A stretch of 64,000 nucleotides of DNA from the NCBI RefSeq assembly GCF_023370115.1, contig NZ_CP097160.1, forward strand, positions 1,860,001 through 1,924,000, written 5' to 3'. The position numbers and the translations under genes are program-made. This document shows positions 30,393 to 61,291 of this stretch, one piece after another (positions within the stretch are counted from its first letter, which is position 1; each line of letters opens with the position of its first letter). This stretch comes from Gulosibacter sediminis (GTDB lineage: Bacteria > Actinomycetota > Actinomycetes > Actinomycetales > Microbacteriaceae). The notes under the pieces are model-generated. The model was given only the letters and a program-made list of their open reading frames with translations, had not been told where the DNA came from and did not search any database.

Positions 30393-30425
30393 GGGGGTTG
30401 AGTGGTCGTTTTTTGTGGTACTGGC
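30393..30425. repeat. PR-1 palindrome, left arm, split by IS copy 1
   Basis: This 33-base arm begins GGGGGTTGAGTGGTCG and ends GTACTGGC. It matches the left arm of the intact 69-bp PR-1 repeats at 41557, 57528 and 61223 apart from two changes near its inner end. Sequence identity to PR-1 stops precisely at the IS boundary (30426). Confidence 0.85.
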
Positions 30426-31749
30426 ACTGGGGTGTTCAGTCGGTGAGTGCAACTCCATCGATGAGTTGTTGGAGTCTTTCAGCTGGCGTGTAGCCCTGCA
30501 ACACGACACGGGGCCGGGAGTTCAGACTGTCTTGAACGGCTTGGAGTTCCTGGTCCGTGATCGTGTTGAAGTCAGTGCCCTTCGGGAAGTCCCACCGCAA
30601 TTGGCCATTCAAGTTCTCGTTACTTGGCCGCTGCCATGGCGAGTGCGGATCGCAGAAGAACACGGGGCATCCGGTCGCGACCGTGAACTGTCGATGCTGC
30701 GCCATTTCCGTGCCCTGGTCCCACGTCACTGACGCGCGCACCGCGGCCGGGAGTCGTTCGACCATGCTCGTGAGCACATCGATCACGGTCTGCGAGTCCC
30801 GCGCTCCGGGGAGTCGGCCGATCAGGCACACCCGACTCGCGCGTTCCATCAATGTCACGATCCCGGAATTGTTCGGCCCGACCACGAGGTCGCCCTCCCA
30901 ATGCCCGGGTACCGCGCGGCCGGCGTGTTCGGCCGCGAGTTGCTCGTCGCGGTCCGCGAGCCGGTATCCGTCCAGCCACGGCCGGGAGTTGCGTGGAGGG
31001 AGTTTCGATTGAGGTTTGCGGCCGGTGCGGCCCGACCGTAGTGCTTGCGCGACGGTGAGTTCGTGGCGCAGCCCGCTCGTGCCTTGGACGTACAAGGCTT
31101 GATAGATCGCTTCGTGACTGATCCTCATGGCCGCATTCTCCGGGAACACGACCGGCAGGCGCGCGGCGATCTGGGGCGGGGACCATTTCTTGTTGAGGTA
31201 GCCGATGACCACGTCCCGTAACGGCGTGTTCGTGTCGAGTTTGCGGGGTTTCGGGCGGGCGCGGGCATGTTCTGCACGGTACTGCGCCAACTTGGCGCTG
31301 TACTGGTGTTGTGTCGTCCCGCTCGTGTCGAGCGTGAGCTGGGAGCGACGGATTTCTCTGGACACGGTTGCCGGGGAGAACCCGATCAGCTTCGCGATCC
31401 GGGCCTGGGACAGGCCTTGTTCCAGGCCGAGCTGGATCAGCATCCGGTCGCCGAGTTGGAGGCGGCGCCCGTGCCCGGTCGGCGGGAGCGTGTCCGGGTC
31501 GAGCGGGGTGGGGAACACGACCGGGGAGCGGGTCGCGCTTGGTCGTCCTTGTTGCATGCGTACTCCTGCCCATCGAAGCCAACGCGACAACGTTGCCATG
31601 CCCAGGCCCGGACACTGCTGTCGCAGTGCCCGGGACCGTGCCGGGATCCCGTCCAGCACCAACTCGATCACGCGTACGCGGTACGCCAGTGGATACATAC
31701 CAACTCCCTGAACTTCAGGGAATTGCACTCACCCCACGAACCCGCCACC
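30426..31749 (-). mobile_element. IS30-family insertion sequence, copy 1 (1324 bp)
   Basis: The 1324-bp body holds one transposase gene. Its two ends form an imperfect inverted repeat of about 29 bases: both carry GGTGAGTGCAA followed by (C/T)TCC, and an outer TGG..G..GTTC, with 22 of 29 positions equal by eye. The body lies between the two arms of a PR-1 palindrome. A second copy of the same length is at 47688-49011. I cannot identify a clean target-site duplication. Confidence 0.88.
30436..31698 (-). CDS. IS30-family transposase, copy 1
   Basis: 420 residues from the ATG at 31698, which has AGGGAG five bases upstream; a GTG start ten codons earlier is possible. The N-terminal HTH (QARIAKLIGFSPATVSREI) binds the ends. 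The DDE triad is visible as GHWEGDLVV, TWDQGTEM and SNENLNGQLR. The frame is intact, so the element may be active. It differs from copy 2 at about 8 of 430 residues of the longest frame. A palindrome CCCTGAA-G-TTCAGGG overlaps the ribosome-binding site and may limit translation. Confidence 0.95.
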   Translation of the reverse strand: MYPLAYRVRVIELVLDGIPARSRALRQQCPGLGMATLSRWLRWAGVRMQQGRPSATRSPVVFPTPLDPDTLPPTGHGRRLQLGDRMLIQLGLEQGLSQARIAKLIGFSPATVSREIRRSQLTLDTSGTTQHQYSAKLAQYRAEHARARPKPRKLDTNTPLRDVVIGYLNKKWSPPQIAARLPVVFPENAAMRISHEAIYQALYVQGTSGLRHELTVAQALRSGRTGRKPQSKLPPRNSRPWLDGYRLADRDEQLAAEHAGRAVPGHWEGDLVVGPNNSGIVTLMERASRVCLIGRLPGARDSQTVIDVLTSMVERLPAAVRASVTWDQGTEMAQHRQFTVATGCPVFFCDPHSPWQRPSNENLNGQLRWDFPKGTDFNTITDQELQAVQDSLNSRPRVVLQGYTPAERLQQLIDGVALTD

Positions 31750-31782
31750 GCCAGAACTACAAAAAACGACCACTCAACCCTC
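31750..31782. repeat. PR-1 palindrome, right arm, split by IS copy 1
   Basis: It begins GCCAGAACTACAAAAAACG and continues GACCACTCAACCC, the complement of a PR-1 left arm with one change at the outer end. The stop codon of the adjacent FGGY kinase (31774-31776) is made from the GGGTTGAG part of this arm. Confidence 0.85.
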
Positions 31783-41556: not shown

Positions 41557-41625
41557 GGGGGTTGAGTGGTCGTTTTTTGTAGTGCTGGCGGCGCCAGCAC
41601 TACAAAAAGTGACCACTCAACCCCC
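41557..41625. repeat. PR-1 palindrome, intact copy A (69 bp)
   Basis: 33-base arms around a GGC centre. The left arm begins GGGGGTTGAGTGGTC and ends GTAGTGCTGGC. The arms are perfectly complementary except at two adjacent positions, where GT faces GT; as RNA from the plus strand this gives G-U and U-G pairs. It lies between the convergent iclR and dctP genes. Downstream to 41646 follows CTCAGCCCCCATGGGTGGGG, a module with its own small hairpin, also present after copy C and after IS copy 2. Confidence 0.9.
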
Positions 41626-41659
41626 TCTCAGCCCCCATGGGTGGGGCCGGGCGGGTGGG

Positions 41660-42790
41660 TTAGCGTTCGGCGAACTGGTCGACGCAGTCGATGGTGGCGT
41701 CGTCGTATTCGGCGTCCTCGTACTTTGCGTAGGCGGCCTTGTAGGCGTCGAGGAACGAGCCCGCATCCTCAAGGCCGTAGCTGCCGGCGATCTCTTCCCA
41801 GCTTGCCTCGGCCGAGTCGCCGACCTGGTCCTGCCATTCCTGCGTGGCCGACTCATCCCAGGCCGTCACCGAGTCGACGTCGGGCGAATCGAGCATTTCC
41901 TGGCACTGGCCCGCCGCCGAGCCGTTGAAGGCCGCGATGGCCTCTCCCCCATTGAACTCGGCCGTGACCTCGTCGACGATCTGCTTGAGGTCGTCGGGCA
42001 GGCTGTCGTAGGCGCTCGCCGAGAACCACATGCCGAAGGTCGAGTACTGGCCGATTCCCGGGTCGACCCAGTTCGGAATCAGCTCCATCAGGCGGTAGTT
42101 GACCGGGAAGTCGATGGCGCCCGCGGTCGAGTTGATCACGCCGCGCTCGACCGATTCATAGGTCTCGCTCGCGGTGATGGCGTTGATGTTCATGCCAGCG
42201 TCCTGCAGCACCTCCTGAATCACGGGGCCCGAGGCGCGCGCCTGCAGCCCCGAGAGGTCGGCGACGCTCGTGGTCTGCTCCATCGTGCCGATGAGCAGGC
42301 GACCAACCGGCCAGGCCGAGACGTAGTGCAGGCCCGCCGAGTCCATGCTCGCGATCGCCGTTTCGTTCGTCGTGTGCAGCTCGTAGAGCGCCGCCGTGAC
42401 GGCCTGCGAGTTCTGGTTGATGAACGGGATGCCGACGACGCTCAGCGTCGGGAAGTACTGCGGCGTGTAGTCGGGCACGGTGACGCCGATGTCGGCGCGG
42501 CCGTCACGCAGGCACTCGACGACCTCGGGCGCGGCGCAGATCGCCTCAGCCGTGGTGCGTTCGATCGAGATGCGACCGTCGCTCGCCTCCTCGAGGCGAT
42601 CGAGGTACCAGTCCTGAGCCGCGGCGTTCGGCGTGCCGTCGGTGGCCGCCGTTGCCAACGTGAAGGTGTACTCGGCGGCACCGTCGCCGCCCGAGGCCCC
42701 GTCGGAGCAGCCGGCGAGCAGCAGCGACGACGTGGCCGCGGCCACGAGTGCGTAATACGCGCCTTTCCGGCGACTTTTCATTCTCAACAT
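41660..42790 (-). CDS. TRAP transporter substrate-binding lipoprotein (DctP family)
   Basis: 376 residues from the ATG at 42790; AAAGGA lies upstream. Lipobox LAGC with Cys28, so it is lipid-anchored rather than periplasmic-soluble. The DctP fold is seen in WYLDRLEEASDGRISIE near residue 60, then GVTVPDYTPQYFPTLSVVGIPF and the later WFSASAYDSLPDDLKQIV. The ligand is probably a carboxylate. Unusually it is the last gene of its operon, separated from the dehydrogenase by an intercistronic hairpin. Confidence 0.9.
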   Translation of the reverse strand: MLRMKSRRKGAYYALVAAATSSLLLAGCSDGASGGDGAAEYTFTLATAATDGTPNAAAQDWYLDRLEEASDGRISIERTTAEAICAAPEVVECLRDGRADIGVTVPDYTPQYFPTLSVVGIPFINQNSQAVTAALYELHTTNETAIASMDSAGLHYVSAWPVGRLLIGTMEQTTSVADLSGLQARASGPVIQEVLQDAGMNINAITASETYESVERGVINSTAGAIDFPVNYRLMELIPNWVDPGIGQYSTFGMWFSASAYDSLPDDLKQIVDEVTAEFNGGEAIAAFNGSAAGQCQEMLDSPDVDSVTAWDESATQEWQDQVGDSAEASWEEIAGSYGLEDAGSFLDAYKAAYAKYEDAEYDDATIDCVDQFAER

Positions 42791-47654: not shown

Positions 47655-47687
47655 AGGGGTTGAGTGGTCACTTTTTGTAGTTCTGGC
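47655..47687. repeat. PR-1 palindrome, left arm, split by IS copy 2
   Basis: Matches a PR-1 left arm (GGGGTTGAGTGGTCAC, then TTTTTGTAGTTCTGGC) with one change at the first base. It lies 12 bases after the AraC stop. The inner half carries TTC where the right arm has TGC, so the two arms no longer fully pair. Confidence 0.85.
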
Positions 47688-49011
47688 AACGGCGGGTTCT
47701 TGGGGTGAGTGCAATTCCCTGAAGTTCAGGGAGTTGGTATGTATCCACTGGCGTACCGGGTACGCGTGATCGAGTTGGTGCTGGACGGGATCCCGGCACG
47801 GTCCCGGGCACTGCGACAGCAGTGTCCGGGCCTGGGCATGGCAACGTTGTCGCGTTGGCTTCGATGGGCAGGAGTACGCATGCAACAAGGACGACCAAGC
47901 GCGACCCGCTCCCCGGTCGTGTTCCCGACCCCGCTCGACCCGGACACGCTCCCGCACGAAGGGCACGGGCGCCGCCTCCAACTCGGCGACCGGATGCTGA
48001 TCCAGCTCGGCCTGGACGAGGGCCTGTCCCAGGCCCGGATCGCGAAGCTGATCGGGTTCTCCCCGGCAACCGTGTCCAGAGAAATCCGTCGCTCCCAGCT
48101 CACGCTCGACACGAGCGGGACGACACAACAGCAGTACAGCGCCAAGTTGGCGCAGTACCGTGCAGAACATGCCCGCGCCCGCCCGAAACCCCGCAAACTC
48201 GACACGAACACGCCGTTACGGGACGTGGTCATCGGCTACCTCAACAAGAAATGGTCCCCGCCCCAGATCGCTGCGCGCCTGCCGGTCGTGTTCCCGGAGA
48301 ATGCGGCCATGAGGATCAGTCACGAAGCGATCTATCAAGCCTTGTACGTCCAAGGCACGAGCGGGCTGCGCCACGAACTCACCGTCGCGCAAGCACTACG
48401 GTCGGGCCGCACCGGCCGGAAACCTCAATCGAAACTCCCGCCACGCAACTCCCGGCCGTGGCTGGACGGATACCGGCTCGCGGACCGCGACGAGCAACGC
48501 GCGGCCGAACACGCCGGGCGGGCCGTGCCCGGGCATTGGGAGGGCGACCTCGTGGTCGGGCCGAACAATTCCGGGATCGTGACATTGATGGAACGCGCGA
48601 GTCGGGTGTGCCTGATCGGCCGACTCCCCGGAGCGCGGGACTCGCAGACCGTGATCGATGTGCTCACGGGCATGGTCGAACGACTCCCGGCCGCGGTGCG
48701 GGCGTCAGTGACGTGGGACCAGGGCACGGAAATGGCGCAGCATCGACAGTTCACGGTCGCGACCGGGTGCCCCGTGTTCTTTTGCGATCCGCACTCGCCG
48801 TGGCAGCGGCCGAGTAACGAGAACTTGAATGGCCAATTGCGGTGGGAATTCCCGAAGGGCACTGACTTCAACACGATCACGGACCAGGAGCTACAAGCCG
48901 TTCAAGACAGCTTGAACTCCCGGCCCCGTGTCGTGTTGCAGGGCTACACGCCAGCTGAAAGACTCCAACAACTTATCGATGGAGTTGCACTCACCGACTG
49001 AACACCCCGGT
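47688..49011 (+). mobile_element. IS30-family insertion sequence, copy 2 (1324 bp)
   Basis: Same length and nearly the same sequence as the element at 30426-31749, in the opposite orientation. The ends carry GGTGAGTGCAA inside an imperfect inverted repeat of about 29 bases. It is bounded by the two arms of a PR-1 palindrome. Beyond the right arm the sequence continues with the CTCAGCCCCCATGGGTGGGG module that also follows intact copies A and C, so the flanks belong to a pre-existing repeat. Confidence 0.9.
47739..49001 (+). CDS. IS30-family transposase, copy 2
   Basis: 420 residues from the ATG at 47739 (AGGGAG five bases upstream; GTG at 47709 is an alternative). HTH and DDE motifs as in copy 1: GHWEGDLVV, TWDQGTEM and SNENLNGQLRW. 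The frame is intact. Differences from copy 1 include HE for PT after TLP, DE for EQ in the GL..GLSQ stretch, and G for S in LTSMV. A short CCCTGAA-G-TTCAGGG palindrome covers the ribosome-binding site. Confidence 0.95.
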   Translation: MYPLAYRVRVIELVLDGIPARSRALRQQCPGLGMATLSRWLRWAGVRMQQGRPSATRSPVVFPTPLDPDTLPHEGHGRRLQLGDRMLIQLGLDEGLSQARIAKLIGFSPATVSREIRRSQLTLDTSGTTQQQYSAKLAQYRAEHARARPKPRKLDTNTPLRDVVIGYLNKKWSPPQIAARLPVVFPENAAMRISHEAIYQALYVQGTSGLRHELTVAQALRSGRTGRKPQSKLPPRNSRPWLDGYRLADRDEQRAAEHAGRAVPGHWEGDLVVGPNNSGIVTLMERASRVCLIGRLPGARDSQTVIDVLTGMVERLPAAVRASVTWDQGTEMAQHRQFTVATGCPVFFCDPHSPWQRPSNENLNGQLRWEFPKGTDFNTITDQELQAVQDSLNSRPRVVLQGYTPAERLQQLIDGVALTD

Positions 49012-49044
49012 GCCAGCACTACAAAAAGTGACCACTCAACCCCC
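49012..49044. repeat. PR-1 palindrome, right arm, split by IS copy 2
   Basis: Begins GCCAGCACTACAAAAAGTG and ends CACTCAACCCCC, identical to the right arm of intact copy A. The downstream module CTCAGCCCCCATGGGTGGGG follows at about 49049-49068. Confidence 0.88.
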
Positions 49045-49184
49045 TCCTCAGCCCCCATGGGTGGGGTGGCTTGGGGTGTCACATGGTGGATGCAACAAGG
49101 AATTTGTTGAGGCGTTTGAACCGTCCAGGGATTGATGCTGCTCATTTTTGATTTGAAAGGATGGCGTCATACCAATGAAGAATT

Positions 49185-53449: not shown

Positions 53450-54623
53450 TTCAATGAGTTGAAAGAGAAGTTTTTGAGACGCAAAGGCGCTCGGACGTCG
53501 GAATCTCAACGGCCGCTCGCGAGGTCGGTGTCAACCCGAACACCGCGTTCGGGTAGGTGCAACGGACCAGGCTCCGAGGACATGGTGCGGCGGAAACCAT
53601 CCCCCACGTCGTCAGTCTGAGTACATGCAACTCCGTGCCGACGGCATGCCGCAGGGAGACGCTGCGGCCAGAGTGGGTGTTAACGTGTGCTCAGCGAGTG
53701 ACCGGGACCAAGGGATCCGGCACACGCGTAACTCGCGCCTCTCTCATGATGGCTCCGTTGTCGATTACAACACTGGCAAGACCATGCAGGTAGTTGCTCC
53801 CGTCCTGCCGCCGGTGGCGGCTGTGCTGAATCCCCGTTATTTCACGCTCGAGGAGCGGGAGACGATCACTGACCCGCACCGGAGTGACGTGAGGCTGCGG
53901 AGGATTGGTGGCGTGCTGCGCAGGCCACCTTCGACGATCAAGCGTGAGCTCGATGGCCGTTTCAAAGCAGGACGCTTTCAGCCTTATATCGCGCATCGTG
54001 CCTGGGCTGCGTCGAGGTCGGGACCGAATAGTTCGAAGCTCGTCGCTCGCGTATCATTGCGAGAGTACGTGCAAGAGACGTTGTCGGCGCGGTTGCCGCC
54101 GGAGCAGATCAGTCACTCTCTGAGGAGGGAGTTTCCCAAGGTCGAGGACCGCGCGTTGCCTGGGCATTGGGAAGGCGATCTAATCGTTTAGCCAGGCAGC
54201 GCTTCGGCGATTGCGACACTGGTGGAACGAACGACTCGGTACCTGCCCGGGGGCATCTGCCTGGTGGGAATACTGCAGGGAAGGCGCGTGGCGCCCTCAC
54301 CGGATTGATCGGAACGATACCTGAGCATCTGCGGGGGGTCGCCGTCCCGGTATCAGGGCACCGCGATGGCCGCTCATAAGCAATTCAGCATCACGACCGG
54401 GGTTCCGGTCTACTTCTGTGATCCCCACTCACCCTGGCAGCGAGGTAGCAACGACAACGACAACGGGCTCCTGCACCGGTTCATCCCCAAGAACACAGAC
54501 CTCCGCCCGTACGAGCACTAGGGCCTCGAGCACGTCGTTCAAGAGCACAATGGTCGTCCACGCAAGACGCTCGGCTGGGATACCCCAGCCGAGCGTCTGC
54601 GTGATGTACTGATGGCCTCTTAA
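53450..54623 (+). pseudogene. IS30-family transposase remnant, unrelated to the intact copies
   Basis: In broken frames one reads AAREVGVNPNTAFG near 53520, then RYFTLEERETITD, STIKREL, YIAHRAWAASR and SLREYVQETLSARLPPEQISH (to about 54120). The sequence jumps by an internal deletion to DRALPGHWEGDLIV followed by a stop at 54190. A later frame gives AAHKQFSITTGVPVYFCDPH and HNGRPRKTLGWDTPAERLR, ending TAA at 54621-54623. Sequence divergence from the 1324-bp element shows a different IS30 lineage. Non-functional. Confidence 0.85.
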
Positions 54624-57527: not shown

Positions 57528-57596
57528 GGGGGTTGAGTGGTCGTTTTTTGTAGTGCTGGCGCCGCCAGCACTACAAAAAACGACCACTCAACCCCC
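57528..57596. repeat. PR-1 palindrome, intact copy C (69 bp, perfect)
   Basis: Two 33-base arms that are exact complements around a GCC centre; the left arm starts GGGGGTTGAGTGGTCG and ends GTAGTGCTGGC. The CAGCCCCATGGGTGGGGCGG module follows to about 57620, then the 3' end of the Nramp-like gene. It is located downstream of that gene and also marks the border of the accessory segment. Confidence 0.92.
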
Positions 57597-57633
57597 TTCT
57601 CAGCCCCATGGGTGGGGCGGCTTGGGCGGGGCG

Positions 57634-61222: not shown

Positions 61223-61291
61223 GGGGGTTGAGTGGTCACTTTTTGTAGTTCTGGCGGCGCCAGAACTACAAAAAACGACCACTCAACCCCC
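61223..61291. repeat. PR-1 palindrome, intact copy D (69 bp)
   Basis: 33-base arms around a GGC centre, between the convergent lacI and APC permease genes. The inner arm reads GTAGTTCTGGC with the matching GCCAGAACTAC, a compensated change relative to copies A and C. At the AC/AC position the arms mismatch on the plus strand but form G-U pairs in minus-strand RNA. The CCCCATGGGTGGGG module is absent here. Confidence 0.9.

Follow-up and report, generated by a model that had tools for sequence, protein, structure and literature searches.

Two positions in a 64,000-nucleotide stretch of the Gulosibacter sediminis genome (the window) raise the question of how an IS30-family element comes to lie at the exact centre of a dispersed palindrome, PR-1, that is also present in intact form in the same stretch. 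A first-pass annotation had proposed a dedicated target relationship and had kept as an alternative that the intact copies are MITE-like deletion derivatives of the element. We followed both readings through the whole genome, a single 2,748,452-bp contig (2.75 Mb) that contains the window, and into congener genomes designated by codes (G001, G003, G004, G005, G007, G009 and G010). Judged by comparison of arms, junctions and orthologous sites, it is very likely that the elements were inserted in a targeted manner at the axis of palindromes that already existed.

RESULTS

Occupied and empty palindromes in the window

The window contains three intact PR-1 copies and two occupied sites, C (30393-31782) and D (47655-49044), and the coordinates that the first-pass annotation had assigned to all five proved correct (Table 1). 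The intact copies have 33-base arms and a 3-base centre. At both occupied sites, 1324 bp separates the arms, which corresponds to a 1318-bp IS with one triplet on each side. The IS at site D lies in the opposite orientation to the IS at site C and is ~97.7% identical to it. No known RNA family was found at gathering score across window positions 30300-61400. A further one-sided flank near CTCAGCCCCCATGGGTGGGG, partly palindromic, is common to 41626-41660, 49045-49080 and 57597-57630.

Table 1. Palindromes, IS30-family elements and junction triplets in the window (window coordinates)
Feature	Position	Strand
Left arm, occupied site C	30393-30425	
Triplet ACT between arm and IS end 1, site C	30426-30428	
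T1-type IS30-family element (1318 bp), same sequence as copies A and F	30429-31746	-
IS30 transposase, 430 aa, D-56-D-33-E, site C	30436-31728	-
Triplet ACC between IS end 2 and arm, site C (target-centre position)	31747-31749	
Right arm, site C	31750-31782	
Empty PR-1 between convergent predicted genes; arms unlike at two adjacent positions (GT / AC)	41557-41625	
Left arm, occupied site D	47655-47687	
T1 IS30 element with flanking triplets (AAC / GGT, + strand), site D	47688-49011	+
End of transposase frame, site D	49001	+
Right arm, site D	49012-49044	
Empty PR-1 with identical arms	57528-57596	
Empty PR-1 between convergent predicted genes; arms unlike at two adjacent positions (AC / GT)	61223-61291	

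Census of PR-1 in the genome

A whole-genome search showed that the association is real and reaches far past the window: there are 24 PR-1 sites, of which 15 are empty and 9 hold an IS30-family element precisely at the centre. The arm pattern, defined as 29 positions with up to 3 mismatches, matched 44 times in the genome, and its reversed control matched 0 times, which places the count well beyond chance. When sorted by hand, 29 of these arms came from empty palindromes, namely the 28 arms of 14 complete palindromes and one arm of a fifteenth (2047306-2047365), the second arm of which is one base short. The remaining 15 came from eight IS30 sites, given that one arm of site B exceeds the mismatch limit. 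At the ninth occupied site, X (945032-946350), each arm is shorter by one T and has an extra G, identically on the left and right. Five palindromes (353437, 365251, 659936, 865379 and 924666) keep the outer arms and lack the CTGGC centre, and a half palindrome is present at 650772. There was no significant preference of occupancy for CTGGC-type centres (9/24 versus 0/5 others, p=0.15), and the IS in G009 occupies a palindrome of the non-CTGGC type.

A search of the G. sediminis genome with HTH_38 returned 10 matches above the Pfam cut-off, consisting of nine full-length transposases and one truncated remnant. All nine full-length IS30 copies are inside a palindrome, the pattern by which REP-targeting IS are recognized. 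The tenth match, a 237-aa truncated IS30-family frame at ~53.8 kb of the window (53835-53951), is outside any palindrome. Just to the right of site D, window positions ~49068-49118 resemble a stretch at the end of a T3-like IS of G007, and this stretch and the truncated frame look like separated pieces of an older IS30. Outside chromosomes, the outer-arm palindrome pattern had 0 exact matches among the viruses of IMG/VR, and only distant relatives of the IS were found on plasmids (119 records, all of 60-80% identity and with coverage of less than 80% of the query).

Element types and junction triplets

The nine copies are of three types: T1 (A, C, D and F), T1b (B and E) and T3 (G, H and X). 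T1b and T1 share about 79% protein identity and were counted as one group; the T3 transposases, counted as another, are ~38-43% identical to those of T1 and T1b over 345-417 aa. T1 and T3, the two types run against NF033563, scored 234.8 and 271.1 bits, respectively (cut-off 80), and the T1 transposase matches HTH_38 and rve. The spacing of the catalytic residues (56/33 in C and E, 57/33 in G) fits D-(54-61)-D-(33)-E, the IS30-family motif as given in the accessible text of PMC2516522. Imperfect terminal inverted repeats were recognized by eye, with GGTGAGTGCAA.TCC at both T1 ends and TGCAACA at both T3 ends.

The first-pass annotation had reported no clean target duplication, which is true of the window copies C and D and fails elsewhere. 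The triplets between arm and IS match at all three T3 copies (GGT/GGT, GGC/GGC and GCC/GCC, with one extra G at one end of G). Among the T1 copies, they match at A (ACT/ACT) and differ at C (ACT/ACC), D (ACC/GTT in IS orientation) and F (ACT/GGC), so that one of four matches, and neither T1b copy has matching triplets (B, GCC/GGC; E, GGT/ACC). The ACT at end 1 is common to A, C and F. One way to read these junctions is that bases of a circle junction can stay at one end of the IS and that end 2 reports the centre of the target.

Arms follow the site

We compared the IS bodies with the arms that surround them. Across 1318 bp no base separates the bodies of A, C and F, nor does any separate G from X across 1255 bp; a single base distinguishes G from H over 1257 bp and H from X over 1255 bp. 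The arms at F (GGGCAGTTTTTGTAGTTCTGGC), G (CAGTTTTTGTAGTTCTGGC), H (CGTTTTTTGTAGTTTTGGC) and X (CACTTTTGTAGGTTTGGC) are specific to their site, with the left arm equal to the right arm across the IS; at the other five occupied sites, the two arms have 1 to 5 differences. Identical bodies inside different, internally matched arms indicate that the arms are not part of the IS. In a comparison of 22 sites, which omits X and 2047306, arms differed by 1.18 of 29 bases within a site versus 2.99 between sites, and 0 of 20,000 shuffles were as low. For the eight occupied sites alone, the values were 1.5 and 3.02, with 31 of 20,000 shuffles as low. The left-right match also continued beyond the core for a mean of 3.8 bases within a site versus 1.2 between sites (29 sites, descriptive means). 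Sites A and C have in common a left arm that is unusual and asymmetric (GTGGTAC), and the right arm of B resembles an arm of site 659936. Some arm sequence has thus moved with the IS or been converted, and for A and C the shared left arm suggests conversion from a common donor.

Orthologous sites in congeners

Among the three congeners compared, G009 is the nearest (83-96% in the larger matched blocks). It is a draft in which single Ns within palindromes and at both ends of its IS leave the states partly unread. Several G009 palindromes are interrupted by single Ns or N runs, and short-read assemblies may therefore undercount this repeat family.

G009 has one T1 copy (C33:33890-35260). The left flank of this IS is 96% identical to G. 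sediminis positions 659978-663434, a stretch that runs into the empty palindrome 659936-659996. The triplet at the right end of the G009 IS is GGC, which is the centre of that same palindrome, and after GGC the G009 sequence continues with GGTAAGACTACAAAAAGTGACCACTCA versus GGTGAGACTACAAAAAGTGACCACTCAAC in G. sediminis, with the rare arm signature GTAGTCTYACC. At the G009 site, the left arm runs into an assembly N that obscures its last bases, and beyond the right arm the flank is without a match. A site that is empty in G. sediminis is therefore occupied in G009 with the same centre and rare arm, which favours the dedicated-target reading. The G009 site also fits a junction with circle-derived bases at one end and the target centre at end 2.

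The first-pass annotation had named empty orthologues that lack PR-1 as evidence against targeting, and two sites bear on this point in opposite directions. The orthologue of occupied site F in G007 is a complete, empty 60-bp palindrome with other inner arms (C11:37154-37213). Site A has an orthologue without a palindrome in G007, which leans against the palindrome-first reading; the G009 orthologue has GTTGAGTG, followed by unlike bases and an N. At site F, G009 has the outer half of the arm and then a single N, and G007 has an extra 1.7 kb that is closed by a second, interrupted palindrome. The inner arms of this second palindrome (C11:38926-38997) are separated by a short piece of unrelated sequence, which may be what a lost insertion left behind. 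The empty G. sediminis site 987820 corresponds in G007 to a degenerate palindrome (C11:32437), which by eye stands at an equal distance from the same right-hand neighbour. No collinear empty orthologue was found for window sites C and D.

In G007, IS30 copies are visible solely at contig ends. At the ends of C4, C10, C11 and C13, a T3-like IS30 starts 2-3 bases after a half palindrome of the G007 type, the inner arms of which differ from those in G. sediminis. In the two ends compared, the T3-like IS30 was 72% identical to the G. sediminis T3 over 107 aa and 78% over 238 aa. These four elements account for four of the five G007 HTH_38 matches above the cut-off; the fifth is at C1:341007. A looser half-arm pattern matched 45 times in G007 and 15 times in G009, with 0 and 0 matches for the controls. 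The strict outer-arm palindrome pattern matched 2 of 398 genomes in a family sample, G. sediminis and G007; G009, with Ns inside many of its palindromes, escapes this pattern. Inspection of the flanks of two G005 HTH_38 elements showed that neither is within such a palindrome. A crude inverted-repeat screen covered one G003 locus, one G004 locus and eleven loci from other genera. Further HTH_38 matches above the cut-off are present in G001, G003, G004, G005, G007, G009 and G010.

Structure, covariation and gene context of the palindromes

The repeats form a family of near-perfect palindromes of 60-70 bp with outer arms GTTGAGTGGTC and variable inner arms, present in G. sediminis and at least two congeners. 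We assessed covariation in 18 G007 palindromes (15 distinct) and 17 from G. sediminis. These sets omit C3:73381 (64 bases), C11:38926 (interrupted) and the degenerate C3:93935 and C11:32437 of G007, and 365251, 417213, 2047306 (60 bases) and 650772 of G. sediminis. Compensatory changes were found at 14 of 30 pairs in G007 and 13 of 30 in G. sediminis, and 0 of 500 shuffles were as high. All five covariation measures exceeded all 500 shuffles and dropped when the partners were slid. There was no excess of G-U among the mismatched pairs (5 G-U, 16 A-C and 19 other in G. sediminis; 4, 3 and 9 in G007), and as an explanation a selected RNA hairpin thus has no advantage over a symmetric DNA site, or over correction of one arm by the other at the same site.

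Using gene calls from a home-made codon-score predictor, a predicted gene 3' end was found nearby at 25 of 27 sites, and 13 of the 27 are between two gene 3' ends. Site 924666 falls within a predicted frame, and at some sites the predicted stop codon is the TGA within GTTGAG. The tie to 3' ends is weak, given that 69 of 97 palindrome-free gaps (40-400 bp) also touch a gene 3' end. Convergent gaps were modestly enriched (6 of 14 gaps with a palindrome versus 15 of 97 without; p=0.025). By eye, no T-run follows the palindrome in the flanks of 25 sites, so that no U-tract terminator was recognized; if the palindromes terminate transcription, they may do so as U-less hairpins.

Two other identities were considered for the palindromes and dropped. 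The idea that they border mobile single-gene modules, in the manner of gene cassettes, was given up since six G. sediminis and three G007 intervals, once translated, look by eye like ordinary genes, including an aminopeptidase P-like protein and a glyoxylate-cycle-like pair. Integron attC sites had been suggested by the GTT...AAC ends; relative to attC, the ends stand in reverse order and the palindromes are near-perfect.

Palindromes and synteny breakpoints

In a comparison of eight sites with one relative, G007, six sites are at synteny breakpoints (C, 41557, D, 57528, 61223 and 987820). Site A is collinear, as is site F save for the extra palindrome-bounded 1.7 kb in G007, and three further breakpoints were seen by eye in the same 68 kb. 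The hypergeometric probability of this association is 2.5e-4 to 2.6e-5 on a rough count of ~45-65 gene junctions, a range that overstates the case. Sites C, 41557 and 61223 seem to mark the three ends of a single displaced block, and D and 57528 seem to bound one segment present only in G. sediminis. The six breakpoints would thus reduce to about three events, and those at all five window palindromes probably to two.

DISCUSSION

The dedicated target relationship proposed in the first-pass annotation is supported by the identical IS bodies within different arms, by the palindrome 659936 that is empty in G. sediminis and occupied in G009, and by the empty palindrome at the site F orthologue in G007. 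We propose that at least two separate IS30-family groups use the centre of the palindrome as a target. Insertion at the axis of symmetry divides the palindrome into two half-sites, with ~3 bp (2-3 in G007) between arm and IS, and integration of a circular intermediate by an IS30-type copy-out/paste-in route may be responsible. The transposase may respond to two-fold symmetry combined with the conserved outer arm, and not to the inner sequence, given that the inner arms differ between species. The IS could benefit from such sites, since positions between or after genes, some perhaps acting as transcription terminators, would impose a low cost on the host. The palindromes could in this way serve as safe havens to which insertion is directed.

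We considered whether the arms could instead be long IS ends and the palindromes MITE-like products of internal deletion, a reading prompted by the similar arms around every full-length copy in G. sediminis and by the odd left arm common to A and C. It would, however, have to place bodies that are identical over 1318 or 1255 bp in different arms that are matched within the site at F, G, H and X. It would also have to explain why arms of one kind surround two transposase groups that are only ~38-43% identical. Moreover, G007 palindromes with other inner arms still flank a T3-like IS, and an empty G. sediminis site agrees with the occupied G009 site in arm and centre. The alternative is therefore rejected as highly improbable. 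It might also be that a RAYT (Y1 transposase) dispersed the palindromes as REP-type elements and that IS30 visits them secondarily, given their scattered and largely extragenic occurrence. Classical REPs are unlike PR-1, the arms of which are far longer and near-perfect. Matches to Y1_Tnp (PF01797) were found in 0 of 11 genus genomes versus 5 of 14 control genomes, and we regard this origin as very unlikely.

The IS copies could also have passed from one palindrome to another mainly through the shared arms, by homologous recombination or gene conversion and not by transposition. The identical bodies and common asymmetric left arm of A and C point in this direction, as do the mostly unmatched T1 and T1b triplets and the location of several sites at synteny breakpoints. 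Nevertheless, the T3 copies retain site-specific arms with matching 3-bp repeats, F has the body of A and C within a pair of mutually matching arms unlike those at A and C, and the G009 site retains its own arm and centre, making recombination an unlikely main route. Targeted insertion at a pre-existing axis remains our preferred reading. A wider proposal, which we put forward tentatively and would not yet favour, is that IS30-type transposases read the two-fold symmetry of fast-evolving palindromes, possibly as an extruded cruciform or hairpin, and not their inner sequence, such that distinct IS groups reuse the sites amid compensatory drift of the palindromes from species to species. The palindromes might then be a genus-specific system of safe havens and rearrangement hotspots at the ends of transcription units.

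Dispersed palindromes have been documented as IS targets before. In the accessible text of Tobes and Pareja (2006, PMC1525189), targeting of REPs is described for IS3, IS110, IS4, IS256 and IS5 elements, and ISRm22 inserts at the axis of palindromy. As in those systems, all or most copies of the IS are inside a dispersed extragenic palindrome. Unlike them, the G. sediminis system involves IS30, which is not among the five families named there, and its target is longer, near-perfect and covarying, with no RAYT found in the genus. The IS30 of E. coli has a nearly palindromic hot spot, LHS, and inserts at its central 2 bp with a 2-bp target duplication (PMC9333248). An IS30-family transposase, a nearly palindromic target and central insertion are shared with E. 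coli IS30, and the copies with matching triplets would also share a short duplication. In G. sediminis, however, the target is a whole repeat family and the junction repeat at those copies is 3 bp, whereas the consulted portion of PMC9333248 does not describe the E. coli hot spots as one dispersed repeat family. IS1630 of Mycoplasma fermentans targets inverted repeats of variable sequence, according to the title of Calcutt et al. (1999) as cited in PMC3317919, the available text of which gives junction duplications of 16-26 bp at four copies. Here, in contrast, each half of the palindrome stays single and ~3 bp is repeated at the copies with matching triplets. For ISLxc3, an IS30-family element of Leifsonia xyli, no conserved target was identified according to the accessible part of PMC2516522, and nothing on targets was found in the available part of PMC3898611. 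We found no IS30 element confined to a dispersed palindrome family in the literature searched, a body of work that takes in few subscription papers, and we met no description of covarying palindromes in searches that were directed at wider subjects than the repeat alone.

In summary, as far as the literature searched shows, our findings add the IS30 family to those that use a dispersed palindrome as a regular target. Site 659936 and its G009 counterpart provide a natural pair of empty and occupied sites for the study of IS30 targeting. Given that the inner arms differ by species and that insertion stays at the axis, whether an IS30 transposase reads sequence or symmetry becomes directly testable. 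The presence of these palindromes at several synteny breakpoints means that they may also bear on gene order in the genus.
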